Of a stretch of DNA of 64,000 nt, positions 2,179 to 29,298 are shown in pieces (the first letter of the stretch is position 1; each line of letters opens with the position of its first letter). A program made the translations under genes and the position numbers. This DNA is from an uncultured Fusobacteriaceae bacterium. Lineage in GTDB: Bacteria; Fusobacteriota; Fusobacteriia; Fusobacteriales; Fusobacteriaceae. A model generated the notes under the pieces. That model saw nothing but the letters and a program-made list of their open reading frames with translations. It was not told the DNA's origin and did not search any database. The DNA lies in assembly GCA_947038515.1 (NCBI GenBank), contig CAMQWJ010000003.1:1-64000 (forward strand), given 5' to 3'.

Positions 2179-2379
2179 TTAGTTACCAGAAGTAATGTTA
2201 GTAGCCTGTGGACCTTTAGCACCATCAGTAACATCAAAAGTAACCTCTTCTCCTTCCGTTAACTTTTTGAATCCTTCTTTTTGAATCTCAGAGTAATGAG
2301 CGAAAACGTCTTTCCCGTCCTCAGCAGTTATAAATCCAAATCCTTTCTCTTCGTTAAACCATTTTACTGTACCTTTCAT
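2179..2379 (-). CDS. cspA: Cold-shock protein (CspA family)
   Basis: This 66-residue single cold-shock domain begins [17 protein letters not shown] and contains the RNP1-like KGFGFI and RNP2-like [12 protein letters not shown]-binding motifs, with Lys/Gly/Ala near the end as in Csp proteins. Length is typical (65-70). The ATG at 2377-2379 is chosen because GGAGG lies 6-10 nt upstream; an upstream in-frame ATG would add a non-homologous 19-residue N-terminus. It acts as an RNA chaperone in the cytoplasm. A leader of up to about 220 nt separates it from the next gene, as is usual for csp genes with a thermoregulated 5' UTR. Confidence 0.95.
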
Positions 2380-11049: not shown

Positions 11050-11085
11050 AAAAGACCTTAGATTAATTTCTAAGGTCTTTTTTTT
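11050..11085. terminator. Bidirectional terminator between barrel and flavodoxin genes
   Basis: AAAGACCTTAGA (11051-11062) and TCTAAGGTCTTT (11069-11080) pair across ATTAAT. The plus strand continues TTTTT and the minus strand continues TTTATAAAG. Confidence 0.88.
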
Positions 11086-11587
11086 ATGAAAAATATTTCA
11101 AGATATCATTAATCCAATCTTGTATTCTTTCTGGAGTTTGATCCTCTTGGTTTGTTTCATCAAGAACAAGACCAATAAACTTATTGTTTTCTATTGCTTG
11201 TGTATCTTGATAAGAATAACCAAGAATAGAAGTAGGAGAAACGATGTTACCACCTTTTTCTTGAATAATATCATAAAGAATTCTCATTCCACTTACAAAG
11301 GATTCTCCAAAAGCTCGTTGGTTACCTAGTCCTACAATTCCAATTGTTTTATTAGTAAAGTCAATTTTTTTTAATTCTGATATTTGATTATTCCAATCAT
11401 CTTGTAATTCTCCTACTCCATAAGTAGGAGTAACTAAAATTAAATTTGAAAAATTGGATATTTCTTTAATTCCATCTTTTACATTAATAACTTGATAATC
11501 TTTATTTTTTAGATTAAATTCTATTTCTTCAACTATTGCCATTGTACTTCCACCAGTACTACCGTAAAAAATTCCAATTTTATTCAT
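11084..11587 (-). CDS. Long-chain flavodoxin
   Basis: This 167-residue FMN protein starts MNKIGIFYGSTGGSTMAIVEEI. The phosphate-binding loop (GSTGGST) and the next FMN loop (TPTYGVGELQDDW, with its stacking Tyr/Trp) are both intact, as is VGLGNQRAFGESF. It is a low-potential electron carrier for anaerobic metabolism (pyruvate oxidoreductase, hydrogenase and similar partners). The start is supported by an in-frame stop two codons upstream. The nearest SD (GGGAGG, 11617-11622) is 29 nt from ATG with a hairpin between them, which is unusual. It is monocistronic. Confidence 0.93.
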   Translation of the reverse strand: MNKIGIFYGSTGGSTMAIVEEIEFNLKNKDYQVINVKDGIKEISNFSNLILVTPTYGVGELQDDWNNQISELKKIDFTNKTIGIVGLGNQRAFGESFVSGMRILYDIIQEKGGNIVSPTSILGYSYQDTQAIENNKFIGLVLDETNQEDQTPERIQDWINDILKYFS

Positions 11588-11596
11588 ATTGTTTTA

Positions 11597-11622
11597 TAAG
11601 CTATTGAGCTTAAATTCCTCCC
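11597..11622 (-). promoter_or_regulatory. Hairpin between SD and start codon of flavodoxin
   Basis: On the minus strand GGGAGG (11622-11617) is followed by a six-pair stem, arms 11607-11612 and 11597-11602, with a CAAT loop. Nine nt then lead to ATG at 11587. Folding would cut the SD-AUG gap from 29 to about 13 nt. Confidence 0.55.
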
Positions 11623-12191: not shown

Positions 12192-13679
12192 TTATAAAAA
12201 GGTACCAATTTCTATTTTTGAGTTATTAAAAAGTATTGTTTCATTAAAAAGAGAGATATTATCAAGTATTTGAACTTTTAAACTTCCATTTCCTATATAA
12301 TTATTACTTCCTAACTCCCCACTTATCCCCATAATTAAAATACCACCTAAAACAGATATAAAATTATCGTTAGAAACTCCCAATAAACTTCCTATTATTG
12401 AGGTTGACATACAACCAGTTCCTGTTAATTTAGACATGGATGAATTTCCATTATAAATTTTAACTATTCTATTTTTATCAATAATATAATCAACTTTTCC
12501 AGTTATTGCTATAACTGTATTATATTTTATTGCAAGTTCTCTTCCTATTTCTTCTTCATTTCCAAAATCTATTGAATCAACACCTTTTCCAAAAGATTTA
12601 GAAAAATCAAGTAGTGTTTTAATTTCGGATAAATTCCCTTTGATAGAAGTGAATTTAATATTTTGTAAAAGTGTTTTCACAAGTTCTTTTCTAGAATTAC
12701 TTGCACCTACACCAACTGGATCAAGAATAATAGGCTTTTTATACTTGTTGCATAATTCTCCCATAAAGACCGCGATATCCCTCATGGAAGAATCCATAGT
12801 TCCTATATTTAGAACAACACTTGATGATATAGAAATTAATTCTTCCATTTCTTCTTTACAAAAGCTCATAAGAGGAGATCCTCCAATTGCAAGAGTAACA
12901 TTGGCACAGTCATTAATTGTAACAAGATTTGTTAAATGAAGTACCAATGGATTTGTTGTTCTTACATTCTTAATATTTTCAGATATTTGACTAATATATT
13001 CAGCTTTTGAAATTTCTATTTTCATATTATGTGTGGCTGTTCTTATATTGTCTTTTTCAAGTATTTCAGAAATAACAGCTACTCCATCAACCCCACTTGT
13101 CATAACATCTAAAATATTAGAACTGTTTATTCCCCCTATTGCCATTGTGGGAATATCAGTATTATTTATAATTTTTTTTAATTTTTCAAGACCTAATGGG
13201 AAACTGGCATCTCTTTTACTAGAGGTTGAAAAAATAGGACCAATTCCAATATAGTCAGGTGAGAATGAAATAGCTTTTTCTGCTTCCTCCTCTGTTGTAA
13301 CAGAAAGTCCGATTATTTTATCTTTTCCTAAAATTTTTCTAGCCTGAGTCACACTCATATCACTTTGTCCAAGATGGACTCCTGTAGCATCAATTTCCTG
13401 TGCTACCTGAACATTATCATTAATTATTAAGGGAATAGAATATTTATCTGTAATCTTTTTTATAGATTTACCTAGAGATAAAAATTCATCATAGCAGAGC
13501 TCTTTCTCTCTAAGTTGTATCATAGTGGCACCACCAAGAATAGCTTCTTCAATGACTAAATTAAGATCTCTATTTCCAAGTATTTCTCTATCTGTAACTA
13601 AGCATAACTTTGAAATTTCTTTTATATTTTGAGTATGTATTAAATTATCAATCTCTATTGAATCAATTTTTCTATTCAT
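12192..13679 (-). CDS. thiEM: Bifunctional ThiE-ThiM: thiamine-phosphate synthase / hydroxyethylthiazole kinase
   Basis: This 495-residue protein has two complete enzymes. Residues 20-222 are ThiE: MIQLREKEL, LIINDNVQVAQEIDATGVHL, IGIGPIFSTSSK, MAIGGINSSN. It joins HMP-pyrophosphate and thiazole phosphate to thiamine phosphate. Residues 225-490 are ThiM: VLHLTNLVTINDCANVTLAI, ILDPVGVGASNSR, and LTGTGCMST with the catalytic Cys. It phosphorylates salvaged thiazole, so the fused protein makes one ThiE substrate itself. No frameshift or internal SD is visible at the junction. The ATG overlaps the thiD end by 8 nt, and its SD (GGAG) lies inside thiD. It is the last gene of the operon. Confidence 0.95.
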   Translation of the reverse strand: MNRKIDSIEIDNLIHTQNIKEISKLCLVTDREILGNRDLNLVIEEAILGGATMIQLREKELCYDEFLSLGKSIKKITDKYSIPLIINDNVQVAQEIDATGVHLGQSDMSVTQARKILGKDKIIGLSVTTEEEAEKAISFSPDYIGIGPIFSTSSKRDASFPLGLEKLKKIINNTDIPTMAIGGINSSNILDVMTSGVDGVAVISEILEKDNIRTATHNMKIEISKAEYISQISENIKNVRTTNPLVLHLTNLVTINDCANVTLAIGGSPLMSFCKEEMEELISISSSVVLNIGTMDSSMRDIAVFMGELCNKYKKPIILDPVGVGASNSRKELVKTLLQNIKFTSIKGNLSEIKTLLDFSKSFGKGVDSIDFGNEEEIGRELAIKYNTVIAITGKVDYIIDKNRIVKIYNGNSSMSKLTGTGCMSTSIIGSLLGVSNDNFISVLGGILIMGISGELGSNNYIGNGSLKVQILDNISLFNETILFNNSKIEIGTFL

Positions 13680-14478
13680 ACTCTACTCCTGCTTTTTTAT
13701 ATAACTCTATAAAATGACCTATTGGTCCAACTCCTTCCCCAATTGAAAAAGAATTTTTTATTCCTAGAGTTATAAATTCTTTTCCTTTAGTAATAGATTC
13801 TTCAATGGAATATCCCTTAGAAATAAAAGAGGTTATTGCAGAAGAGAGGCTACATCCTGTTCCATGTGTGTTAATAGTAGAGATTCTTTCACCATAAAAT
13901 TTAATGATAGAAGAATTTTCATTAATTAAAATATCAGTACAATTATCTGTTCTATGTCCTCCTTTAATTAGAACATTTTTTGCTCCCATTTTTTTTATTC
14001 GTAGACCAGCTTCAATCATATCATTTTCATTATTAATTTTCATTTCAGATAAAATTTCAGCTTCTGGAATATTTGGAGTTATTAATTTAGAAATAGAAAT
14101 TAATTTTTTTAGATTACTTATAGCCTCCTCTTTCAAAAGAAAATATCCACTTTTAGAGACCATAACAGGATCAAGAATAATATTATCTATAGTTGTTTCT
14201 TTTAAAAAAGAATAGACAGTTTCACTAATTTCTGAGCTTGAAAGCATTCCAATTTTTATAGCATCAATCCTAATATCTTCATAAAGAACTTCAAATTGCC
14301 TTTTGATTATATCAAGTTCTATTTCTTGAACAGCAAAAACTCCTTTACTATTTTGTGCAGTTATAGCTGTAATAACACTCATTCCATAGACTCCACATGC
14401 ACTCATAGTTTTTAAATCTGCTTGAATTCCAGCTCCACCACAAGAATCAGAACCAGCTATTGTAAGAACATTTTTCAT
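13672..14478 (-). CDS. thiD: Hydroxymethylpyrimidine / phosphomethylpyrimidine kinase
   Basis: This 268-residue ribokinase-fold enzyme begins VLTIAGSDSCGGAGIQADLKT and ends with the catalytic region INTHGTGCSLSSAITSFI. It phosphorylates HMP twice to give HMP-PP for ThiE. Length is typical. It sits between the transporter genes and thiEM in the TPP-controlled operon. The SD GGAGG (14506-14510), just after the thiY stop, is 27 nt from the ATG with a perfect hairpin in the gap, which is unusual for this genome. Confidence 0.96.
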   Translation of the reverse strand: MKNVLTIAGSDSCGGAGIQADLKTMSACGVYGMSVITAITAQNSKGVFAVQEIELDIIKRQFEVLYEDIRIDAIKIGMLSSSEISETVYSFLKETTIDNIILDPVMVSKSGYFLLKEEAISNLKKLISISKLITPNIPEAEILSEMKINNENDMIEAGLRIKKMGAKNVLIKGGHRTDNCTDILINENSSIIKFYGERISTINTHGTGCSLSSAITSFISKGYSIEESITKGKEFITLGIKNSFSIGEGVGPIGHFIELYKKAGVEYE

Positions 14479-14485
14479 TTTTATT

Positions 14486-14510
14486 TGTGATAAAAAATAT
14501 CACATCCTCC
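14486..14510 (-). promoter_or_regulatory. Hairpin between SD and start codon of thiD
   Basis: Reading the minus strand: GGAGG (14510-14506), one base, then TGTGATA-TTTTT-TATCACA (14504-14486), a perfect 7-bp stem. Seven nt later comes ATG 14478. Without the hairpin's 19 nt the SD-AUG gap is 8 nt, an ideal value. Confidence 0.65.
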
Positions 14511-14513
14511 TTA

Positions 14514-15482
14514 TTAAATTAAATTTTTGAAATAAAAATCTGCATCAAATTTCTTTTTTATCATTTTTTCTTTATATAACCATTCTATTCTTTGCTTATA
14601 TAGTTCTTTTTCTTGGGATAAAAATTCTTGATTCTCGCTTTCCATAAGTGGTATAAGTGTATCTAAACTTTTAATTTCTACATTTTTATCAAGAGGAAAG
14701 TTTTCCAGTGACTGATTTGAAAATGTAATATCTATAGCTTCTTTAGGGTGTTTTTTTACATAATTAAATCCTTTTTTAGCTGCTCTTAGAAATTTTTTCA
14801 GAGTTTCAGGCTTATTTTTAATAGTTTCGTCTCCTGAAATAAGAATTGTTTCATATTCTCCAGGCTCCCCATATTGTGCCGCACTAAAATAATTGACTTC
14901 AATTCCTTTTGATTCTAGAACAGGGACTTCATGATGTCGATAACCACCGTGTGTAACATCAACTTTTCCAGTAACCATTGCAGTTATCAAATCAAATCCT
15001 ACGTCAACTAGTTGAACTGTTTTTTCATCTCCACCATTATCTTTAACCAATTTTCTTATTTTCATTTCAGATAGTGGTTCTCCAGAATATCCTATTTTTT
15101 TATTCTCAAAGTCTTTTGGAGACATGATTTTTTTATCTTTAGGAGCTATAAAAACGGATAAAGACTCTTGTGATACAGCCCCAATAGATGAAACAGGGAT
15201 ATTTTGTTCAGTTTTTTGCAAAATAAGTTGGTTCATATAATAAAAACCGATATCAACTTTTCCAGCAGCTGTAAAGATAATAGAGTCATTTGATCCAGAA
15301 GGTAATAAAATTTCAACATCTAATCCCTCTTCTTTAAAGAATCCTTTTTCTTTTGCTACATATATAAAGCTATGAATAGCATTAGGGTACCATTCTAATA
15401 AAACCGTTACAGGTTCTAGTTTTTTTTCAGTTGTACAACTTGTAAATAGTAAAATATAGATAAAAAATAGTAAGTTTTTCAT
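14514..15482 (-). CDS. thiY: Thiamine-precursor ABC transporter substrate-binding lipoprotein ThiY
   Basis: This 322-residue lipoprotein has a lipobox LLFTSC (Cys about residue 16). The NMT1/THI5-like domain carries VLLEWYPNAIHSFIYVAKEKGFF, the ThiY hallmark, and KVDVTHGGYRHHE. ThiY proteins bind formylaminopyrimidine or HMP; in this operon, with TenA and ThiD, the ligand is most likely a pyrimidine breakdown product. ATG 15480-15482 is the true start: it overlaps the thiX stop as ATGA and has GGAGG upstream. Ends with a double-AT tail into the thiD SD. Confidence 0.92.
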   Translation of the reverse strand: MKNLLFFIYILLFTSCTTEKKLEPVTVLLEWYPNAIHSFIYVAKEKGFFKEEGLDVEILLPSGSNDSIIFTAAGKVDIGFYYMNQLILQKTEQNIPVSSIGAVSQESLSVFIAPKDKKIMSPKDFENKKIGYSGEPLSEMKIRKLVKDNGGDEKTVQLVDVGFDLITAMVTGKVDVTHGGYRHHEVPVLESKGIEVNYFSAAQYGEPGEYETILISGDETIKNKPETLKKFLRAAKKGFNYVKKHPKEAIDITFSNQSLENFPLDKNVEIKSLDTLIPLMESENQEFLSQEKELYKQRIEWLYKEKMIKKKFDADFYFKNLI

Positions 15483-16225
15483 AATTCTCTCCTCCAATGA
15501 ATATATTTATTCTCTATAAATGTAATAATTTGAACAGAAATTATTGCAAATAGTGAGAGTATAATAATTGGTGCAAATATTCCAGGTCCATCTAATTGAG
15601 TCATCATTCTTTTACTCAAATATCCTAAACCTTTTTGGGCACCTAACCATTCCCCCACTGTGGCTCCTGTTAAACTAAATGGAATAGCTATTTTTAAAGC
15701 TGAAAAAAAATAGGGTAATACAGCAAATACTTTTAATTTATAAAATTTATCTTTTTCTGTAGCTTTTAAAGAGATGAAAAGCTCAAGATATTCACGTTTA
15801 ATTGACTTAAGACCTTCCAAAACATTGACTGTTATGGGGAAAAAAACCATTAAAACAACTACGATAATTTTACTCCATATACTGTAGCCAAACCATAAAA
15901 TAAAAACTGGTGCTATTGCTATAATAGGTAATGTTTGTGTAATTACAATTATAGGATAAAATAAATTTTCAAGAACAGTATATTTATCCATTAAGAAAGC
16001 TAAGAGTATCCCTAAGACAATTGCTATTGATAATGAAGATAGCATAATTGAAGCTGTTGCAGGAAAATGGATGAAAAAAATAGATTTCCAATTGACAAGG
16101 ATAAACTTTAATATTGAAGTTGGAAGTGGTAAAATATATTCTTTCCCTATATAATAACCAGTAAGTTCCCATAATATTAAAAAAATTGTTAAAGAAATTA
16201 TTAGATGGAAATATTTTTTATTCAT
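15479..16225 (-). CDS. thiX: ABC transporter permease ThiX
   Basis: This 248-residue membrane protein has about six hydrophobic helices and the BPD_transp_1 EAA-type loop at about residues 140-200 (LEGLKSIKREYLELFISLKA, then IPFSLTGATVGEWLGAQKGL). It pairs with ThiZ and ThiY as an importer of a thiamine pyrimidine precursor. Its stop overlaps thiY's start (ATGA) and its start overlaps the thiZ end by 8 nt, both signs of translational coupling. Confidence 0.92.
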   Translation of the reverse strand: MNKKYFHLIISLTIFLILWELTGYYIGKEYILPLPTSILKFILVNWKSIFFIHFPATASIMLSSLSIAIVLGILLAFLMDKYTVLENLFYPIIVITQTLPIIAIAPVFILWFGYSIWSKIIVVVLMVFFPITVNVLEGLKSIKREYLELFISLKATEKDKFYKLKVFAVLPYFFSALKIAIPFSLTGATVGEWLGAQKGLGYLSKRMMTQLDGPGIFAPIIILSLFAIISVQIITFIENKYIHWRREL

Positions 16226-17622: not shown

Positions 17623-17662
17623 AAAATATCAAAAATAGATTTCTCTTATTTTATAAAATTTT

Positions 17663-17741
17663 ATTACTCCTTCCGTCGGTTCTAACCGATTCAAGTTCCA
17701 TGGGTCGAGTTTCCTCTCTCAGCATTAAGCACCCCAGTAAT
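17663..17741 (-). ncRNA. TPP (THI-box) riboswitch aptamer
   Basis: The minus strand carries the THI-box landmarks in order: ATTACT (P1), GGGGTGC, GCTGAGA, ACCC, GAACTTGAATCGG with a local AACCGA stem, GGAAGGAG and closing AGTAAT (P1 partner). Consensus positions around the pyrimidine-binding GCTGAGA loop are intact. It controls tenA-thiZXY-thiD-thiEM. The segment GGAAGGAG (17668-17675) is also complementary to CTCCTTTCC in the terminator, which supplies the antiterminator. Confidence 0.95.
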
Positions 17742-17751
17742 CATTATCTAA

Positions 17752-18957: not shown

Positions 18958-21900
18958 TTGAAAATACAAGAAATAGAAAAGTCATTAAAAAGATTTTTAA
19001 AAAAGAAAGGAAGTTTCTCAGCAGCATTATTGGTAATGTTTCTAATATCAGGAACAATATCTTTAGGTGGTGTAGAATCTGTAACAGAAATTAATGGAAT
19101 TAAAGGAGATATTTTAGTAAAGATTAAACAAGAAAGAGAAAAAATAAAAGTAAAAATAAAAGAAAATAAAAGTAAAATATCAGAAGAAACAGCGATGTTT
19201 GATACCTTGGTTAAAGAATGGGATTTTTATGGAAAGCCACTTGGGCAAAATACTCAGGTATTTTTTACATATGATAAAATAAATAATGGTTCAGGAAAAG
19301 ATAGAACAAAAGAGGAATGGAGTCCAACAATAGATGCTGTAGTATCATCAGGACTAAGTAGTGATGTAGCTTTAGATAAAGTTATGGCAGGGGCTGGAAC
19401 AGTGATAGATAGTACTACATTTAGAGAAACAATAAAAATATCTGCTAATATTGTGCCTTTAGTTCCAGAAATACCAGTAATTAATAAAGATATTAATGTG
19501 AATATAAATAAACCTCAAATAGGAGAAATAGGGACACCAAATATCCCAGTATTTATTACCCCAGAAACATTAGAGATTAAGACTGTAACTGTTGATTCAG
19601 TTGATGTTCCAAGATTTAATGTACCAACAATTACAGCTCCAGGAGCAGTAGCGTCTATTAATGTAACAGCTCCAGTAATACCTAATGTAAATGTGCCTGG
19701 GGATAGAGAAATAAGTATGGTAGCCCCAGATGCTCCCGGAGGGTTTATACCTAGTCAAATAACTCCTCCAAAAGCACCAGGGATTCCAGTAATAGTACCA
19801 CCAACATTACCTGATTTTACTACTTCAATTACATTTGATGGAAATCATGCTATGAGTACAGTATTTTATTCTGATATAAAAAATGATGACTTTTTTTATA
19901 AAAATGGACTAATTGAAATGGTAACAATTACAGGTGGAGAATTTAAGATTCAGAGACCTGGGGATGATAAATGGCATTATGAATTTAATGATTATACAGG
20001 AGTAAATTCTTTTGCTCAAGGATCTAATGCAAAAATTTTGATTCCAGGTGAAACACTTTCAACTGTGGGAGTAAATGGAACTTGGAATTTGTCAACTACG
20101 GAACCTAAAAGTTCAATAGAAAAATTAGGATTCCAAAAATTAGTAGGAAGTAGTACAAACTCTACAATGGTTAGTAATGCTAATTTTTTATATACCAACA
20201 CAAAGGATAGTAACACTTTAAATGAATTTGCTCATTTGGACATACATGAGGCTGCCCCAGTAGCAGGAGAACGTATTAAATTACTTTTTGGAACTACTGG
20301 ACTTTCTAATCAAGCTGAAATAATGGCTGCATTTGATGATGGAGTAAAAATAAATCCATCAGGATACGCAACCACACCCAACTCTAAAGTTTTCACATGG
20401 ATTAATAGTGGAAAAATTGTAATTGAAGGAGCTAATGGAATAGTAACTAATCATTATGATCATGGACCTTTTGCTGGTTCATCATATAAAGCGATGGCAA
20501 TAAATACAGGTGAAATATTTTTAGTTCCGTATAAAAATGGTACAGAAAATAAGGATACTAACAATGGTGTTTTTGGAATGTCACAGGATGGATTCAGGAT
20601 ACACCATGTAATGTATAATAGTGGTATAATTGATTCTTATTCTCTAAAATCTTTTATTTTTTTAGGTTCAGGGGGAGCAACTAGACCTCTAAGTGTTGTA
20701 AATAGAGGTGAAATAAAGCTGAAGGGTGAAAATTCAGCTGGAGTATATATAAAAACAAATTCTAAAAATCAGTTTGAATTTACTACAGAAGACTTTGTAC
20801 TAGGTACAACAGGTAGCTATAATCCTATTGAGATGTATGGAGACAAAAATATAGGGTTATATATAACTGCAACTAATGCTACAAATAATAAGGGGAATTT
20901 TGCAGTAGATATAGGAAGTACCAATGTAGGAAACCAAGTATTTAATACGTTGTTACATAATGGTTTGGACTATACAACAGGAGATAAGCTTACAAATGTT
21001 AATGTAAATCCTACTGGAGGAGCTAATACAAATATAGAAGGAAGTTTTGGAATATTATCAAGTTCAACTCTTGCTTTAGATTCACATCAAATAAGAATAT
21101 ATGATAAGACAGAATCCAGTGTAGGAGTAACACCTATGGATAATGCTATTCTATCATTAGGGGCTGGAAATATAGAACTTAATGGTGGGACCCAAAATAT
21201 AGGTTTATATATATCAGGAACAGGTATTAATACAGGAAAAATAGATACAATTGGTACAGTGAAATTAGCGGGTGGATTTTCGAATATGGGAGCATATACA
21301 TCTGGAGTGGGCAATGATATCCAGGTTAAAAAAATAGAGGGAACAGATTTGACTGATTCAATATTCCTTTTTGCAGGGGAAGGAAGTAAGATAGTGAGTA
21401 CTGAAGGAATATCTATGATAGGGAAAGTATCTGTAGATGCAAATTCAACTAATAAAAAAGATTCTGGAGCAGCATTTGCAATGGGAACTAATTCTTTAAT
21501 TACAATAAATAAGGTAAGTTTTGATACGAATGTCAATATTTCTGTGACAGGAGCAGTTCAAACTGATACAGGAGATGTGTTAGGATTCGCCTTAATGGCA
21601 GGGTCAGGTGGAAAGATAGAAGCTCAAAATAATAATATAGAAGTCTTAAATGGCTCAACAGGAATAGCTTCAATAGGTTTAGATTCAAATGTAGATTTCA
21701 CAGGTGGAAGATTAAAATATGATGGAAATGGTTATGCAGTTTATTCTGATGGAGCAGGAAAAATAGATTTATCAGGAGCAACAGTTGAATTATATGGAAA
21801 ATCTACTGCTTTTGATTTAAACTTAGATCCATTAGCAATAAGTACAATCAAATTAGATGCTGACACAAAGATAAAAGTAGAATCTAATGATGTAATAGTT

Positions 21901-24900
21901 TTTAATTTGAAAGAGGCTAATAATCTAAATACTACAGGCTTAGAAGCAAGTATTATAAATGCAATAGAAACTGCAACAGGTGAAAATTTGTCTGATTTAA
22001 TAGAAGCAGGAGCAGGAATAGATAAATATAAGACAGCAGCAGTAGATGGAGGGAGTATTACTGTAGGAAGCTTAGATAGAACAGGAACAGGTGCAGTTGG
22101 AGAAAGTACAGCACAAGCTGATGGAAACTTTTACTACAATAGATTCTTGGGTCAAAGACTTGTTGCGACAACTACTGCTGGTAGTACAATATCAGCAGTA
22201 TTAAGTAATGGACAAGGAGAGAAATATAATAACCAAGTAGTAGGATTTGAGATGAACTCTAGTAGTTCAGCAGTGGCTAATACTGAAGCAGCTATTCACT
22301 TAATCGGAAGTACAGTAATAGCAGATAGAACAGAACTTGCTAGAACAGGAGAAAATGGTGGAATTGGTCTATTTATAAATTACGGAACAGTAACAGTAGA
22401 TGGAACAAGTAAAATAGAAGTAGAGATGGACAATAGAAATCATATAAATGAAGGTGGAGTAGGAGTATACTCTGTAAATGGAAGTAATATTAAGACTGAT
22501 GGAATAATAGAAGTAGCAGGAGATAAATCCACTGGAATTATAGGAATGGCGTATAGAGAAGACGCTAATGGGATTCCGATTCCTAATGAATTTGGAACAG
22601 CAGCAGTAGGACAAGGAGAAGTTAATATTTCAAATACAGGAACTATAACTTTAATTGGGATAGGAAGTATTGGGATATATGTAGATAATAATAATGGTGC
22701 TGGAACAGTATCAACTTCAAAAGTAGAGAATAGTGGGATTATAAAAGTAGGTTCGACTAACAGTGTAGGAACTTCAGTAGGAATATATGGAGAGAAATCG
22801 ACTATTTCAAATTTGGGAACAATAGAAGTAGGGAATGGTGGAGTAGGAATATATGGAGAAAAGGGGTCTATAATAGATGCCTTGGGTAACATCAATTTAG
22901 GTTCAGATGGAATAGGAGTAATATTAGATGAAACTTCAAATATAACAGCGACTAATATGATTTTAGGAACATCAGCAGTAGGTGTACCAGATGTAAATGG
23001 AAAAATTGGTATCATGTATCAACTATCAAAAGACGAACAAACTCCATTAACTCCAAAAGTTATACCATTAAGTATAGACAGTAGCTCATTAGATAAAGCA
23101 ATAGCAATTTATGTAGAAGGAGCAAATATAAAATCTACTGGTAATTTAAAAGTAGGTGATAATGGAGTAGGACTATATTCAAAAAATGGTATAGTAGAAA
23201 ATACAGGAACAATTGAATTAGGAACAAAAACAAGTGCAACTGGAATGTATTTGCAGACTACTGCAGGAACTGCAGGAAGTATATCTAACACTGGAACAGG
23301 AAAGATAACAGTAGGTAATAATACTCAATTTGGTATGATTGGAGCCGGAGCCGGTTCAACTATAATAAATAGTGGAACTATTGAATTAAAAGTTGCAGGA
23401 AGTGTAGGTATTTATGCACAAGATGGAGCAACAGTAGAATTATCAGGATCTAATATAATTTTTGAAGCAGGAAAAGTAGGTTCAATAGGAGTATATACAA
23501 ATAATGCTACTATTAATATTGCTGGTGTAGTTGGACATAGTACAACAAATGCAGATAAAAATATTTTGATATATGGAAAAAATGGAAGTACTATCAATAA
23601 TATTGGTGGATTAAGTGTAGATGGAATAAGTTCATCAGGTACTGATAAGACAATCGGAATATATTTGGATGGTACTGATGGTACTACTAATACATATAAT
23701 TCACGAAATTCTCTAACAGTAACCAATGAAGCTATAGGGATATATTCGAAAGGAAATATTACATTGAACTTTAATGGTACTAGTGGAACGACGAATGAAT
23801 TAATTGCAACAGGAATCAATACAACAGGAGCCTTTATAGATGGAACAGCAACATTAAATGGAAATATTATGTCTGATAGTGGGGCGATAGGAGTTTATGG
23901 AAAAGGTGGACTAATAACACTTGATTCTTTAACGACAATAACTCTTGGAGCAACAGCTAATTCAACAGGAATATATTTAGAAAATGGAGCTTCTCTATTA
24001 GGAGATTTGACTGTAAATGGAAGTAATAATAGTATAGGAGTATATTATTCAGGAGCAACTCCAGTAACTAGTGATGGAAATATGACATTAATAAATACAG
24101 GAGTCTCTGGTAATGTTGTAGGAATATTTGCTGGTGGTGCAAATACAGTAGTAACAAATAATGGAAATGTAACAGGAATAGGTTCAAATAATGTTGTAGC
24201 AACAATGGCAGCAACAGGAGGAACATTAAATATAGGTGGAACAATCACAGTTGATGGAAAAGATAGTGTAGGAGCTTTTGCTTCTGAGAAAGGAAAAATA
24301 ATAAATAAAGGCACTATTAATGCAAGTAATGCAAGTAACCCATTGGCTGATACAACAATTGGAATGATGGCTTCAAGTATAACTGCTGGTAAAACAGCTA
24401 GTATAGAAAATGAATCAACAATTACAGGAACTGGAAGTAAAGATGTAGGAATGTATCTAGGAACCTCTATGGGAATTAATGCAGGAAAAAATAGTGGAAC
24501 AGTTAGTGTAGTAGATGGTATTGCTGTTTATCTTGAAGGTGGATTAAATACATTTGATAATACAGGAGCATTAAATGTAACAGGTAATGGAATAGGAATG
24601 TATTTAAAAGAAAGTGGAGCAGGACAAATAAAAAATACAGGAACTATTGATTTAACTGGAACACAAGGAAAAGGAGTTTATGCAGAAAATGCTGTTATAG
24701 ATTTTGATGTAACAACAACTGGTGTAGCTGGAGGTATAGGAATCTATGCGACAGGAGAACTAAGCCCAGGAATACAAGGACGAGGAACAACTATAAATAG
24801 TACAGTAACTGTAGGAGACGGGCAGATAGGAATTTATAGTGCTGATGCTAATGTTAATTTAGATGGAGCAACAGTAGTAGCAGGAAACAAAGTGGGATCT

Positions 24901-27900
24901 CAAAGTTCAATAGGTATTTATTTGAAAAATATGGTTAGTACTCCTCAATATACAATGGCAGGAACAAATGTAACAGTAGGAGATGGGATAGGAATATATT
25001 TAGGAAATAATGAAATGCTAGGAACTCCAGCAACCCAAGGAGTAAACTTAACATTAAATGGAGTAGTAACAACCACAAGTGGAATAGGTATTTATGTTCC
25101 TAAAAAAAGTAAGTTAACTACAGGTACAGTTACATTGAATGTTGGTGGAATAAATGGAATAGGGGTATATTTAGCAGGTGGAGAAGTAAATTTAGGAACA
25201 GGTTCTGAAACACTTACATTAGGTCTAAATGGAATCAATTCTACAGGAGTCTATGTAAATGGAGGAACGCTAAATTTAGGAAATAATATAGTCGTGACAG
25301 GTGAAGGAAGAGTAGCAACAGCAACAAATGGTAGTTTAAATGCAGAGACAATTCTAAATGTAGGTAAAAACTCACAAGGACTATTAGGAAGTTATATTAA
25401 ATCTAATGCAGGAACACCATATACAATAACTAATAAACTTTCAGGAGTTATAACCATAAGAGAAGGTGGAGCAGGGTTAGTAGCAACTCTTGGTACTCCT
25501 CCCTCAGGTATTACTATTCCCCATATTAAATTAGCAACAGTAATAAATTTAGGAACTTTAAATGTTGATGGACATACTATTAATAATGGAATAAAAGTAG
25601 ATTCAATAGGTATCTATTCAGAAGTTGGTGACATAAATAATATAGGTGTGATAAACTTAACAGGTGATGGTGGAGTAGGAATATCATATCACGGAAAGAC
25701 TATTTCAAGTGATATAGCAAATAATGGGATTATTAATTTAAACGGAACAAATGAAATAGGAATGTATTTAACAGGAAATATAGGAAATGTTACAAATGGT
25801 ACAATGATTTCAACAACAGCTAATAATACAGGAATCGTATTGGCGGGAGCAGTTGCAGGAACACAGACAACTATACCAAATTTAGATCTTGGAACTATTT
25901 CGCTAGGAACAGAAAGTATAGGTTTAATGCTAAATGATATAGATATAACTGCATCAACAGGGACTATATCAGTAAATGAAGGAAGCTTAACGAAGTCTTC
26001 TATAGGTGTTTATGGAGAAAATTCTACTATAAATGGAATTATAGATGTTGAAGTTAAAGCAAACGGAATAGCATACTATCTGAAGGAATCAACGACAAGT
26101 ATAGATTTCACTATGACTAGAGTAGGTTCTGGAGGAACATATTTATATGCAAAGGATAGTATTATAACTGTTACAGGCGACTTATTGGTAGGGGCTGGAC
26201 AGACTGGAATAATTTCAGAAGATTCAAGTATAAACTTTGCTACTTCAGGAAGTAGATTTAATGTTTCAGATGGTGGAATAGGATTAATATTAAAAGGAGG
26301 TTCTCTAGGAGGAACACTTCCAGTAATAGATGTAACCGCAGGAACAGCTAATCAATATTCTATAGGAGCTTATTATGAAGATTTAGGAGTTATAACAGGT
26401 TCTTTAAGTTCTGTAACTCAAACTGGAGATTATACAATAGCCCATATATTTGATGGTACTAGCGGTGCGATTGCTCCTATAAACTTGGGAACAAATGGAA
26501 ACAATCAAATAGGAATAATGGGGAAAAATAATTCAGATATAACTGTAAATGGAATTATTGATGTTTCAGGAGATGAAAATATAGGTGTTTATGCAGATGT
26601 AACTTCGTCAAACAGTGTGATAACAGGAGCTGTTAAAGTTGGAGCTTCAAGTATAAGAGATAAATCTTCAATAGGAGTATATGTAAAGAAAGGTTCATAT
26701 ACAGGTGGAGCATTAAGTGTAGGAAATAATTCAATAGGAATATACGGAGAAGAAATAGGTGGTAGCTTCACCCAAGCAGGTGGAATAGATGTAGCTGATT
26801 CAGCCTTAGGAATTTTTGTCCAAAGCAATACAGCAGGAATAACAGTAACTCAAACAGGTGGACTACAAGTAGGAAATACAGGTTCAATAGGAATATATGG
26901 TTCGGAAGCTAATATATCTGTAAATTCAACAGGAGTGCCTACAATAGATAAAGTAGGAACAGGAACTTCAATAGGAATATTAAGTCAAGGATTAGGAGAT
27001 GTTAGCTATACAGGAAGTATGGATATAGCCAATAGTCCAGCCAAAGGTTCAATAGGAATTTATAAAAATGGAATAGGAACAATAACAACAGGAGCAGGAA
27101 ATATTACTGTTGGAGATGCAGGATATGGAATCTATTCAATAAATGATACTCTAACAAGAGGGTCATCAGATATATCAAATAGTGCAAATATGACTCTAGG
27201 AGCATCGACAATTGGAATTTATTCAAAAGGAACAGGAGTAATAACAAATTCAGGACTACTTGATGTAGGAAAGACTACATATAGCAATGCAAGTGGTGAC
27301 AATCCAACTTTAAGCTATACAACTAATTCAAAAAATCATGTAAATTCTATAGGAATTTATTCAGATGGAGGAAAAGTAGTAAATACAGGAACAATAAAAG
27401 TTGATGAGGAACATTCAATAGGAGTTTATGTAAGTAACGGAAGTATGGAGAATAGAGGAACTATAAATGTAACAAATGGTGGTTTAGGAGTATATATATT
27501 AAATAATACAACAGCTTCAAACTATGGAACAATAACAGTTGATGGAATGGGAACAAGTGAAAACTGGAGATCAATAGGAATATCAATATCGAATAATTCA
27601 ATATTTACAAATGAAGTTGGAGGAACAATTGATATAAGTGGTGGAATAGGAATAAATATAAGTGCCTTAGGTGGGGTTTTTAAAAATGAAGGAACAGTTA
27701 ATTTAAGCGGTGGAACAGGAATTTATGGTGGAACGCTTAATGGAGGAACAATTAATATAACTGGTGGAACAGGAAGTGAATCAGAGACGAAACCATCAGG
27801 AGTAGGAAGTGTTAATATAACTGGTGATGGGCAAGTAATAATAGGTGGAGACTACGCATCAGTGGGAGGATCTCTAAATGCAGCAGGAGCAGATATAACA

Positions 27901-29298
27901 CTGAATGGAGCTTGGATAGAAGGGACAATAAATTCAAATGGACCACTGTTCTCAGGAAACACTGTAACAGGAGAAATTAATCTATTACCAGGATTTATAT
28001 CAGGGGAACCAAATACAATACTAGAAGGTTTCTTCAACAACTTTACGGGAGTGACAAGTCTTCCTAATGGTATAACGGTAATAACATCACCATTGTATGT
28101 AGCTAAACAAGTAGGAGAAGATTTAGTGGTAGTAAAACGACCATATGCAGATTTAAGTGTGGGAAGTCAATTTGATGAATTAGAAAAAGGTTTAGATAAT
28201 TTACGAGATATTGCTAATGGAAACAAAAATGATAGTGATATATTGGTTAATTTAGATAAATATCTAAATGGACTTCGTGGAGATGAGTTTGCAGAAGAAA
28301 CAGGAAAAGCCATAGCTGAGACAAGAGGAGATATTTATGGAACAATTCAAGGAAGAATGCAAGATGTAAATAGAGCATTTGATAATTCTTTTGATGAATT
28401 GCTAAATTCATATAACCCTTCGCGACAAAGTGATAAGTTTAGTGTTCTTTATACAGAAGGAGACTTTAAAGATCCAACAGTAGGAATATCAGATTATGAC
28501 TATGATGTAAAAGGTTTATTGTATATGCATGAAAAAGAGGGACTAAAATATGGAACTAAATATGGATATACATTAGGATTTACAGGGTCAACATTTAAAT
28601 TTGATGATGATACAGCCGGTTCATCAGGTTCAGAAGAAGATATTTATAGCTTGAGAGTAGGAGCCCATAGAGAGCAAAAACTAGGAACAAGTAAATTTAC
28701 TTGGTTAACAAGAGGAGAATTAGCATATAACTATCATGATACAGAGAGAAATATGCAAATAGGCCCAGAAAAATATGATAATGAAGCAGGTTATAGCTCG
28801 TATGGAGCAAGCTTTAAGAATGAACTGTCATATAAAGCCTACTCAACTCTATCAACAGATTTAAAAGTTTATGGAGGAGCAAATTTAGAATATGGAGCAA
28901 TGGAAGGATTTACTGAGAAAACAGGTTCAAAAGGTGGACTTGAATTGGAAGTAAAAGGAAATGACTACTTCATAGGAGAATTAGAGGCAGGATTGAAAGG
29001 AAGTAAGAAAATTTATCTAGGAAAGAATATCAATCTAAAAGTAAGTGCAGATGCAGGTTATGCATATGATTTAGGAGATAACTATCCAGGAAATAAAGCA
29101 AAATTAAAGAATGGTGGAGAAGGTTACTATGATTTAATAACAACAGAAAAAGCAGAAGGTTCGCTAAGAGGAAAAGTAGGGTTAGGATTAGAAAAAGCGA
29201 ATCATTATGGAGTAACATTTGAAGTTGAATGGAACAAGAGAGACAACAGAAGTGATGAAGATATTAAATATAGTGCAAGACTTAATTACAAGTTTTAA
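18958..29298 (+). CDS. Giant type V autotransporter adhesin
   Basis: This 3,446-residue surface protein starts at TTG with AGGAGA 6-7 nt upstream. An extended fusobacterial-type signal (KSLKRFLKKKGSFSAALLVM and a following hydrophobic run) leads to a short Lys-rich helical stretch (about 46-70). A Pro/Val-rich segment follows at about 165-275. A very long passenger (about 440-3000) is made of 22-23-residue rungs marked VGIYG or IGIYS, consistent with a beta-solenoid. A helical linker precedes a C-terminal beta-barrel of about 290 residues ending LNYKF with the terminal Phe expected for BAM assembly. No protease domain was seen. It probably adheres to host cells or other bacteria, as other fusobacterial autotransporters do; the ligand is unknown. 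Confidence 0.93.
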   Translation: MKIQEIEKSLKRFLKKKGSFSAALLVMFLISGTISLGGVESVTEINGIKGDILVKIKQEREKIKVKIKENKSKISEETAMFDTLVKEWDFYGKPLGQNTQVFFTYDKINNGSGKDRTKEEWSPTIDAVVSSGLSSDVALDKVMAGAGTVIDSTTFRETIKISANIVPLVPEIPVINKDINVNINKPQIGEIGTPNIPVFITPETLEIKTVTVDSVDVPRFNVPTITAPGAVASINVTAPVIPNVNVPGDREISMVAPDAPGGFIPSQITPPKAPGIPVIVPPTLPDFTTSITFDGNHAMSTVFYSDIKNDDFFYKNGLIEMVTITGGEFKIQRPGDDKWHYEFNDYTGVNSFAQGSNAKILIPGETLSTVGVNGTWNLSTTEPKSSIEKLGFQKLVGSSTNSTMVSNANFLYTNTKDSNTLNEFAHLDIHEAAPVAGERIKLLFGTTGLSNQAEIMAAFDDGVKINPSGYATTPNSKVFTWINSGKIVIEGANGIVTNHYDHGPFAGSSYKAMAINTGEIFLVPYKNGTENKDTNNGVFGMSQDGFRIHHVMYNSGIIDSYSLKSFIFLGSGGATRPLSVVNRGEIKLKGENSAGVYIKTNSKNQFEFTTEDFVLGTTGSYNPIEMYGDKNIGLYITATNATNNKGNFAVDIGSTNVGNQVFNTLLHNGLDYTTGDKLTNVNVNPTGGANTNIEGSFGILSSSTLALDSHQIRIYDKTESSVGVTPMDNAILSLGAGNIELNGGTQNIGLYISGTGINTGKIDTIGTVKLAGGFSNMGAYTSGVGNDIQVKKIEGTDLTDSIFLFAGEGSKIVSTEGISMIGKVSVDANSTNKKDSGAAFAMGTNSLITINKVSFDTNVNISVTGAVQTDTGDVLGFALMAGSGGKIEAQNNNIEVLNGSTGIASIGLDSNVDFTGGRLKYDGNGYAVYSDGAGKIDLSGATVELYGKSTAFDLNLDPLAISTIKLDADTKIKVESNDVIVFNLKEANNLNTTGLEASIINAIETATGENLSDLIEAGAGIDKYKTAAVDGGSITVGSLDRTGTGAVGESTAQADGNFYYNRFLGQRLVATTTAGSTISAVLSNGQGEKYNNQVVGFEMNSSSSAVANTEAAIHLIGSTVIADRTELARTGENGGIGLFINYGTVTVDGTSKIEVEMDNRNHINEGGVGVYSVNGSNIKTDGIIEVAGDKSTGIIGMAYREDANGIPIPNEFGTAAVGQGEVNISNTGTITLIGIGSIGIYVDNNNGAGTVSTSKVENSGIIKVGSTNSVGTSVGIYGEKSTISNLGTIEVGNGGVGIYGEKGSIIDALGNINLGSDGIGVILDETSNITATNMILGTSAVGVPDVNGKIGIMYQLSKDEQTPLTPKVIPLSIDSSSLDKAIAIYVEGANIKSTGNLKVGDNGVGLYSKNGIVENTGTIELGTKTSATGMYLQTTAGTAGSISNTGTGKITVGNNTQFGMIGAGAGSTIINSGTIELKVAGSVGIYAQDGATVELSGSNIIFEAGKVGSIGVYTNNATINIAGVVGHSTTNADKNILIYGKNGSTINNIGGLSVDGISSSGTDKTIGIYLDGTDGTTNTYNSRNSLTVTNEAIGIYSKGNITLNFNGTSGTTNELIATGINTTGAFIDGTATLNGNIMSDSGAIGVYGKGGLITLDSLTTITLGATANSTGIYLENGASLLGDLTVNGSNNSIGVYYSGATPVTSDGNMTLINTGVSGNVVGIFAGGANTVVTNNGNVTGIGSNNVVATMAATGGTLNIGGTITVDGKDSVGAFASEKGKIINKGTINASNASNPLADTTIGMMASSITAGKTASIENESTITGTGSKDVGMYLGTSMGINAGKNSGTVSVVDGIAVYLEGGLNTFDNTGALNVTGNGIGMYLKESGAGQIKNTGTIDLTGTQGKGVYAENAVIDFDVTTTGVAGGIGIYATGELSPGIQGRGTTINSTVTVGDGQIGIYSADANVNLDGATVVAGNKVGSQSSIGIYLKNMVSTPQYTMAGTNVTVGDGIGIYLGNNEMLGTPATQGVNLTLNGVVTTTSGIGIYVPKKSKLTTGTVTLNVGGINGIGVYLAGGEVNLGTGSETLTLGLNGINSTGVYVNGGTLNLGNNIVVTGEGRVATATNGSLNAETILNVGKNSQGLLGSYIKSNAGTPYTITNKLSGVITIREGGAGLVATLGTPPSGITIPHIKLATVINLGTLNVDGHTINNGIKVDSIGIYSEVGDINNIGVINLTGDGGVGISYHGKTISSDIANNGIINLNGTNEIGMYLTGNIGNVTNGTMISTTANNTGIVLAGAVAGTQTTIPNLDLGTISLGTESIGLMLNDIDITASTGTISVNEGSLTKSSIGVYGENSTINGIIDVEVKANGIAYYLKESTTSIDFTMTRVGSGGTYLYAKDSIITVTGDLLVGAGQTGIISEDSSINFATSGSRFNVSDGGIGLILKGGSLGGTLPVIDVTAGTANQYSIGAYYEDLGVITGSLSSVTQTGDYTIAHIFDGTSGAIAPINLGTNGNNQIGIMGKNNSDITVNGIIDVSGDENIGVYADVTSSNSVITGAVKVGASSIRDKSSIGVYVKKGSYTGGALSVGNNSIGIYGEEIGGSFTQAGGIDVADSALGIFVQSNTAGITVTQTGGLQVGNTGSIGIYGSEANISVNSTGVPTIDKVGTGTSIGILSQGLGDVSYTGSMDIANSPAKGSIGIYKNGIGTITTGAGNITVGDAGYGIYSINDTLTRGSSDISNSANMTLGASTIGIYSKGTGVITNSGLLDVGKTTYSNASGDNPTLSYTTNSKNHVNSIGIYSDGGKVVNTGTIKVDEEHSIGVYVSNGSMENRGTINVTNGGLGVYILNNTTASNYGTITVDGMGTSENWRSIGISISNNSIFTNEVGGTIDISGGIGINISALGGVFKNEGTVNLSGGTGIYGGTLNGGTINITGGTGSESETKPSGVGSVNITGDGQVIIGGDYASVGGSLNAAGADITLNGAWIEGTINSNGPLFSGNTVTGEINLLPGFISGEPNTILEGFFNNFTGVTSLPNGITVITSPLYVAKQVGEDLVVVKRPYADLSVGSQFDELEKGLDNLRDIANGNKNDSDILVNLDKYLNGLRGDEFAEETGKAIAETRGDIYGTIQGRMQDVNRAFDNSFDELLNSYNPSRQSDKFSVLYTEGDFKDPTVGISDYDYDVKGLLYMHEKEGLKYGTKYGYTLGFTGSTFKFDDDTAGSSGSEEDIYSLRVGAHREQKLGTSKFTWLTRGELAYNYHDTERNMQIGPEKYDNEAGYSSYGASFKNELSYKAYSTLSTDLKVYGGANLEYGAMEGFTEKTGSKGGLELEVKGNDYFIGELEAGLKGSKKIYLGKNINLKVSADAGYAYDLGDNYPGNKAKLKNGGEGYYDLITTEKAEGSLRGKVGLGLEKANHYGVTFEVEWNKRDNRSDEDIKYSARLNYKF

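Follow-up and report, generated by a model that had tools for sequence, protein, structure and literature searches.

We find that thiD, a gene of the thiamin operon in the 64,000-nucleotide stretch of Fusobacteriaceae DNA analysed here (the window), carries its Shine-Dalgarno sequence (SD) far from its start codon with a perfect hairpin between the two, and that the genome it belongs to (G000) has comparable arrangements at numerous other, unrelated genes. The hairpin is probably a structural spacer of a split ribosome-binding site, one that brings SD and AUG together. We propose more tentatively, as something possible rather than probable, that this is a species-wide habit in which some 35-40 genes, dnaB, purB and signal peptidase among them, rely on a stem-loop for joining SD and AUG; the stem-loops would have been acquired gene by gene in the organism's own lineage, and their 5' arm would often bury a decoy AUG beside the SD.

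Structure of the thiD start region

Read along the minus strand, the region consists of the stop codon of thiY (TAA, 14516-14514), a further TAA, the SD GGAGG (14506-14510, within UAAGGAGG), a single A (14505), a hairpin with a 7-bp stem TGTGATA/TATCACA and a U5 loop (TTTTT; 14486-14504), the single-stranded heptamer AATAAAA (14479-14485) and the thiD start codon ATG (14476-14478). GGAGG is the sole strong SD, with none nearer upstream of the AUG, and its distance to the AUG is 27 nt as it stands and 8 nt with the 19-nt hairpin excised. The original prediction had described GGAGG, TGTGATA-TTTTT-TATCACA, seven nucleotides and ATG, with a perfect 7-bp stem just past the thiY stop and an 8-nt spacing after removal of the hairpin, and the minus-strand sequence agrees with it exactly, the SD following three nucleotides after the stop.

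The 33-nt stretch from SD to AUG folds with -7.0 kcal/mol, a value reached by none of 200 dinucleotide shuffles (z -4.3), and for the 27-nt segment 1 in 500 shuffles was as good, with at most 3 in 300 in two further runs. Total folding energy in the 91-nt context is ordinary (z +0.5); this wider piece is not unusually structured, and the signal is thus that of the local hairpin. In a 120-nt context the hairpin is predicted with a probability of 0.87, and the SD and AUG are predicted to be only partly free (0.47 and 0.63). The hairpin was also considered as a copy of a repeat family, which was ruled out since the genome has a single exact copy of the palindrome and matches to it in the window with up to 3 mismatches are as frequent as expected by chance, and as an intrinsic terminator, which was rejected on the grounds of only two G-C pairs, the tail AATAAAA and no terminator match at the site. 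An Rfam search of the window returned only tmRNA and a TPP riboswitch above the gathering score, the hairpin matching no Rfam family.

The gene itself (13672-14478, minus strand) encodes a hydroxymethylpyrimidine/phosphomethylpyrimidine kinase of 268 amino acids (Pfam PF08543, E 3e-91). All 31 relatives aligned open with MKK/MKN/MKH-(V/I)LTIA at the same residue, and the frame 5' of the ATG holds no ATG, GTG or TTG and closes at a TGA within the hairpin; since the N-termini of the relatives coincide and the upstream frame lacks a start codon before that TGA, the ATG is the true start. Immediately upstream is the gene for a thiY-like substrate-binding protein (14514-15497, minus; Pfam NMT1, PF09084). 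Because its stop codon lies three nucleotides before the SD of thiD, terminating ribosomes would cover that SD, and translational coupling of thiY and thiD is just as possible as independent translation of thiD. The operon is headed by the TPP riboswitch (17651-17746, minus; RF00059, 63.9 bits), followed by tenA, an ABC ATPase, a permease, thiY, thiD and a 495-aa ORF (12192-13679, minus), names that were read from translations; judged solely by its translation, the last ORF looks like a thiE-thiM fusion. Elsewhere in the window, a 3446-aa ORF (18958-29298, plus strand) appears from its translation to be repetitive with an autotransporter-like C-terminus.

In the mechanism we propose, the 30S subunit would pair with GGAGG while the 19-nt stem-loop folds on itself and leaves a path length of about 8 nt, and over this shortened path the AUG would reach the P site; a spacing of 27 nt should be too long if no hairpin shortened it. 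We infer that the hairpin is formed in vivo, that initiation takes place across it and that its disruption would lower ThiD synthesis, and other genes of the genome would use the same solution with mostly different stems. The 3' end of the 16S rRNA, which would show the anti-SD, was sought in the assembly with a pair of exact motifs, neither of which gave a match.

Recurrence in the same genome

The bridging role that had been claimed for the hairpin appears well supported, chiefly by such recurrence. The first sample comprised the window together with twenty 20-kb stretches from its genome (464 kb, 378 ORFs of at least 100 aa), with the thiD start entered by hand as the automatic choice was wrong. 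An SD-like 4-mer stood at normal distance in 327 of these ORFs, and in 8 of the other 51 a strong SD (GGAGG or AGGAG) lay at a distance of 16-45 nt. Under a narrow hairpin rule 4 of the 8 were positive against 0.64 expected, and full folding gave a hairpin for every one of the 8, with energies of -4.5 to -10.8 kcal/mol in seven and a weak -0.8 kcal/mol in the other. Twenty more stretches treated by the same rules gave three far-SD ORFs among 326, two with hairpins; the TTG start of the third is a misplaced flavodoxin start, and the likely real start has a 14-bp hairpin.

The whole sample of the window's own genome amounts to 864 kb, or 49% of it, and across these 864 kb a strict, start-independent scan found a bridging hairpin in 17 of 29 ORFs with only a far SD (16-45 nt) and none in the remaining 12. 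One match counted among the 17 (L156-10784) looks internal and was left out of the gene list. An earlier start-free scan had given 19 matches, of which one (L170+54) was dropped as lying near a stretch edge and looking internal to a longer gene; the strict scan was designed after its weak contrast had been seen, and removed second ATGs of ordinary genes. At least five genes besides thiD were missed by the automatic start picker.

The class as listed holds 19 genes, 18 of them convincing: thiD, two flavodoxins, signal peptidase, purB, hydF, an M50 and an M20 peptidase, a KdsC-like phosphatase, an acyl-CoA dehydrogenase, cbiN, a corrin methylase, a MotA/ExbB protein, dnaB, pyrD, an arginase-family enzyme, two genes with no Pfam match, and a choloylglycine-hydrolase-like (CBAH) gene that is the weak one at -0.8 kcal/mol (names beyond the Pfam family are our own reading). 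Two of the listed genes do not pass the in-frame-start filter of the strict scan and are taken from the earlier one: the second flavodoxin, and pyrD, whose start is less sure since the Pfam domain of its product does not begin until residue 20. Perhaps 35-40 genes genome-wide may belong to the class, as 18 in 49% extrapolates to about 37. Raw spacing between SD and AUG in the 19 genes ranges over 26-44 nt, though the effective spacing is narrow (6-14 nt, mean 9.4, sd 2.0), which speaks for the bridging reading; ordinary strong SDs of this genome stand mostly 4-9 nt from the start. The stems mostly differ in sequence, and in a 120-nt context the hairpin has a probability of at least 0.5 in 17 of the 19 genes and is not favoured in 2. 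One palindrome, GTATAATAA..TTATTATAC, has three copies in the genome, each directly after GGAGG.

The window contains a second member of the class, a flavodoxin gene (11084-11587, minus; Pfam PF00258, residues 6-158) with its SD GGAGG at 11617-11621 and the hairpin TAAGCT-CAAT-AGCTTA at 11597-11612 (both minus; -4.5 kcal/mol, shuffle p 0.02).

A further feature, found in 8 of the 19 genes against 2.9 expected, is an AUG that follows the SD at a spacing of 0 or 2 nt and is located at the 5' arm of the stem or within it. That of thiD (14503-14505, minus) has spacing 0 and reads AUG-UGA, one of three such two-codon mini-ORFs among these genes. The stem may bury this near AUG as a decoy, or the AUG may belong to a mini-ORF coupling like that of axe-txe; the spacer model leaves its excess unexplained.

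Controls

With the strict scan, seven control motif sets gave bridging hairpins in 10 of 156 cases in the window's genome, as opposed to 17 of 29 for the SD (p=5e-10). The same scan of 1333 kb from other Fusobacteriaceae, covering 68 of 80 stretches (three genomes with no match earlier, G039, G044 and G049, being left out), gave 6 of 26 for the SD and 7 of 184 for control motifs; two of these 6 matches (L204, L222) are convincing by eye and several are doubtful. The difference between 17/29 and 6/26 marks an enrichment of the slot in the window's genome (p 0.008). A test of rates between the window's genome and these stretches gave 17 versus 3 (p 7e-6) with matches judged by eye and 18 versus 7 (p 2e-4) with all matches of the earlier start-free scan. 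That earlier scan had shown weak contrast within the window's genome (19/142 for the SD versus 9/120 for pooled control motifs) because many of the pairs tested were second ATGs of ordinary genes.

A further comparison took ATG starts only, which dropped three non-ATG far-SD ORFs in all from the window's genome and G027. In the 864 kb of the window's genome together with 1173 kb from six other Fusobacteriaceae, 11 of 14 far-SD genes, thiD included, carry a hairpin of -4 kcal/mol or lower that leaves 4-14 nt; SD-like..ATG pairs of the same geometry inside ORFs pass in 236 of 1843 cases (12.8%; p 5e-8). There was no SD-specific signal in a diverse, mostly Clostridia set (L010-L088, 713.6 kb), where 14 SD matches compare with 4-14 per control motif, and a search of viral contigs for the SD and hairpin pattern gave no match.

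Orthologues and lineage of origin

Among 122 homologous thiD loci outside the window, which include a few duplicates of the same place (L002/L130, L009/L091), the hairpin arrangement is found in none. An SD-like 4-mer stands at 3-13 nt in 108 and is lacking in 12, one locus has a far SD without a hairpin, and one is too short for the rule. Within the Fusobacteriaceae, 43 of 44 loci have a close SD, and the too-short one (L089) shows one too; the window's own genus is represented in the comparison set by three genomes. For the two class members whose orthologues were checked, the flavodoxin and the KdsC-like gene, a near SD is present in 28 of 28 readable loci (one more being too short to judge) and in 29 of 29 other loci, respectively.

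One other genome (G036) has a gene with a bridging hairpin, which we take to be RpiR-like. Its 52-nt start region is identical in G033 (protein 93% identical), so that this pair is uninformative on compensation, and two orthologues at 62-63% are without the hairpin. Split sites thus appear to arise lineage by lineage, given the near SDs of the orthologues and the absence of the G036 hairpin at 62-63%. In another genome (G017), a cytidylyltransferase-like gene has GGAGG, a 7-8 bp hairpin and an AUG at about 2310-2357 (plus strand) of L245, with a second in-frame AUG inside the hairpin.

Alternative explanations

Palindromes in AT-rich spacers between SD and AUG might arise by chance or neutral insertion and survive because they fold away. 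Hairpins are indeed common everywhere upstream of genes, a distance-only census showing no peak at the slot between SD and AUG, and the ordinary near SDs of the orthologues mean that the arrangement arose in this lineage. Pure chance is made unlikely by the motif-set and internal-ORF controls, and the slot is enriched even though overall hairpin density upstream of genes does not exceed that of the relatives, an observation that also led us to reject a genome-wide excess of palindromes as the cause. We regard this explanation as unlikely, while noting that a neutral origin is compatible with the hairpin now being required. Reinitiation, in which ribosomes that end thiY or the AUG-UGA mini-ORF restart at the thiD AUG with the hairpin incidental, draws on the thiY stop 35 nt upstream of the thiD start, on the near AUGs and their three two-codon mini-ORFs, and on known minigenes that share an SD with a downstream gene, as described in PMC8708949. 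A near AUG with a short ORF is not common to the class, however: 11 of the 19 genes have the hairpin without one, several have no ORF of at least 60 aa ending within 300 nt upstream, and spacings of 0-2 nt are rare among real starts of the genome (8/369), all of which makes reinitiation quite unlikely.

Hairpins close to start codons are often inhibitory (PMC4631060), and the predicted fold leaves the thiD SD only partly free; one might suppose that the stem stands in the way of the 30S subunit and that a protein, a small RNA or temperature acts on it, by opening or binding, to regulate thiD. But the SD and AUG lie outside the stem, and opening it would leave the SD 27 nt away; moreover, the genes of the class have no obvious common regulon and their stems mostly differ, so we hold a repressive or switching hairpin to be very unlikely. 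An element acting at the level of DNA, a dyad operator or a promoter inside the operon unrelated to translation, would fit the perfect dyad symmetry, but the exact sequence is unique in the genome, no sigma-70-like match lies at the hairpin, and the 18 other listed genes have different dyads in the same position with respect to SD and AUG; we consider it extremely improbable.

Comparison with known systems

Split ribosome-binding sites are best known from two phage genes. If the reading of the hairpin as a structural spacer is true, the genome would offer a natural collection for studying the way in which the 30S subunit copes with a structured spacer between SD and AUG; many such sites in a cellular genome would correct start-codon prediction and suggest that initiation can turn hairpin-dependent without loss of the gene. 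Were it true genome-wide, initiation would be tied to the stability of the stems, and the genes concerned would depend jointly on temperature, ions or helicases. The principle is known; we have not found a report of one cellular genome that applies it at perhaps 35-40 genes in the literature searched, which consisted largely of papers outside subscription and yielded the T4 cases and no cellular genome with many split sites, though isolated bacterial cases may well exist.

Thiamin operons under TPP riboswitches resemble this one in the RF00059 element upstream, and differ in that the thiD hairpin is a separate element within the operon. The minigene coupling described for axe-txe and ycbK in PMC8708949 is similar in the short ORF near the SD, found here in a minority of the class and at thiD as AUG-UGA; it is unlike the present case in that 11 of 19 genes have no mini-ORF and the hairpin is the common denominator. 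The closest likeness is with bacteriophage T4 genes 38 and 25, where, according to PMC3014915, the SD lies 22 and 27 nt from the AUG, structure shortens these distances to 5 and 11 nt, and initiation drops when mutations weaken the structure, gene 25 having also been probed with DMS. As in these split ('accommodated') sites, the SD of thiD is far, none is nearer, the hairpin lies wholly between SD and AUG, and its excision leaves a functional spacing. The split site of gene 25 is reported there to be confined to close T-even phages, a lineage-by-lineage occurrence which the sites of the window's genome seem to share. T4 provides two phage genes studied by mutation and probing, and here there are 18-19 genes in half of a cellular genome, seen in sequence and predicted folding; that thiD works like T4 genes 38 and 25 would be the simplest account of its start region.
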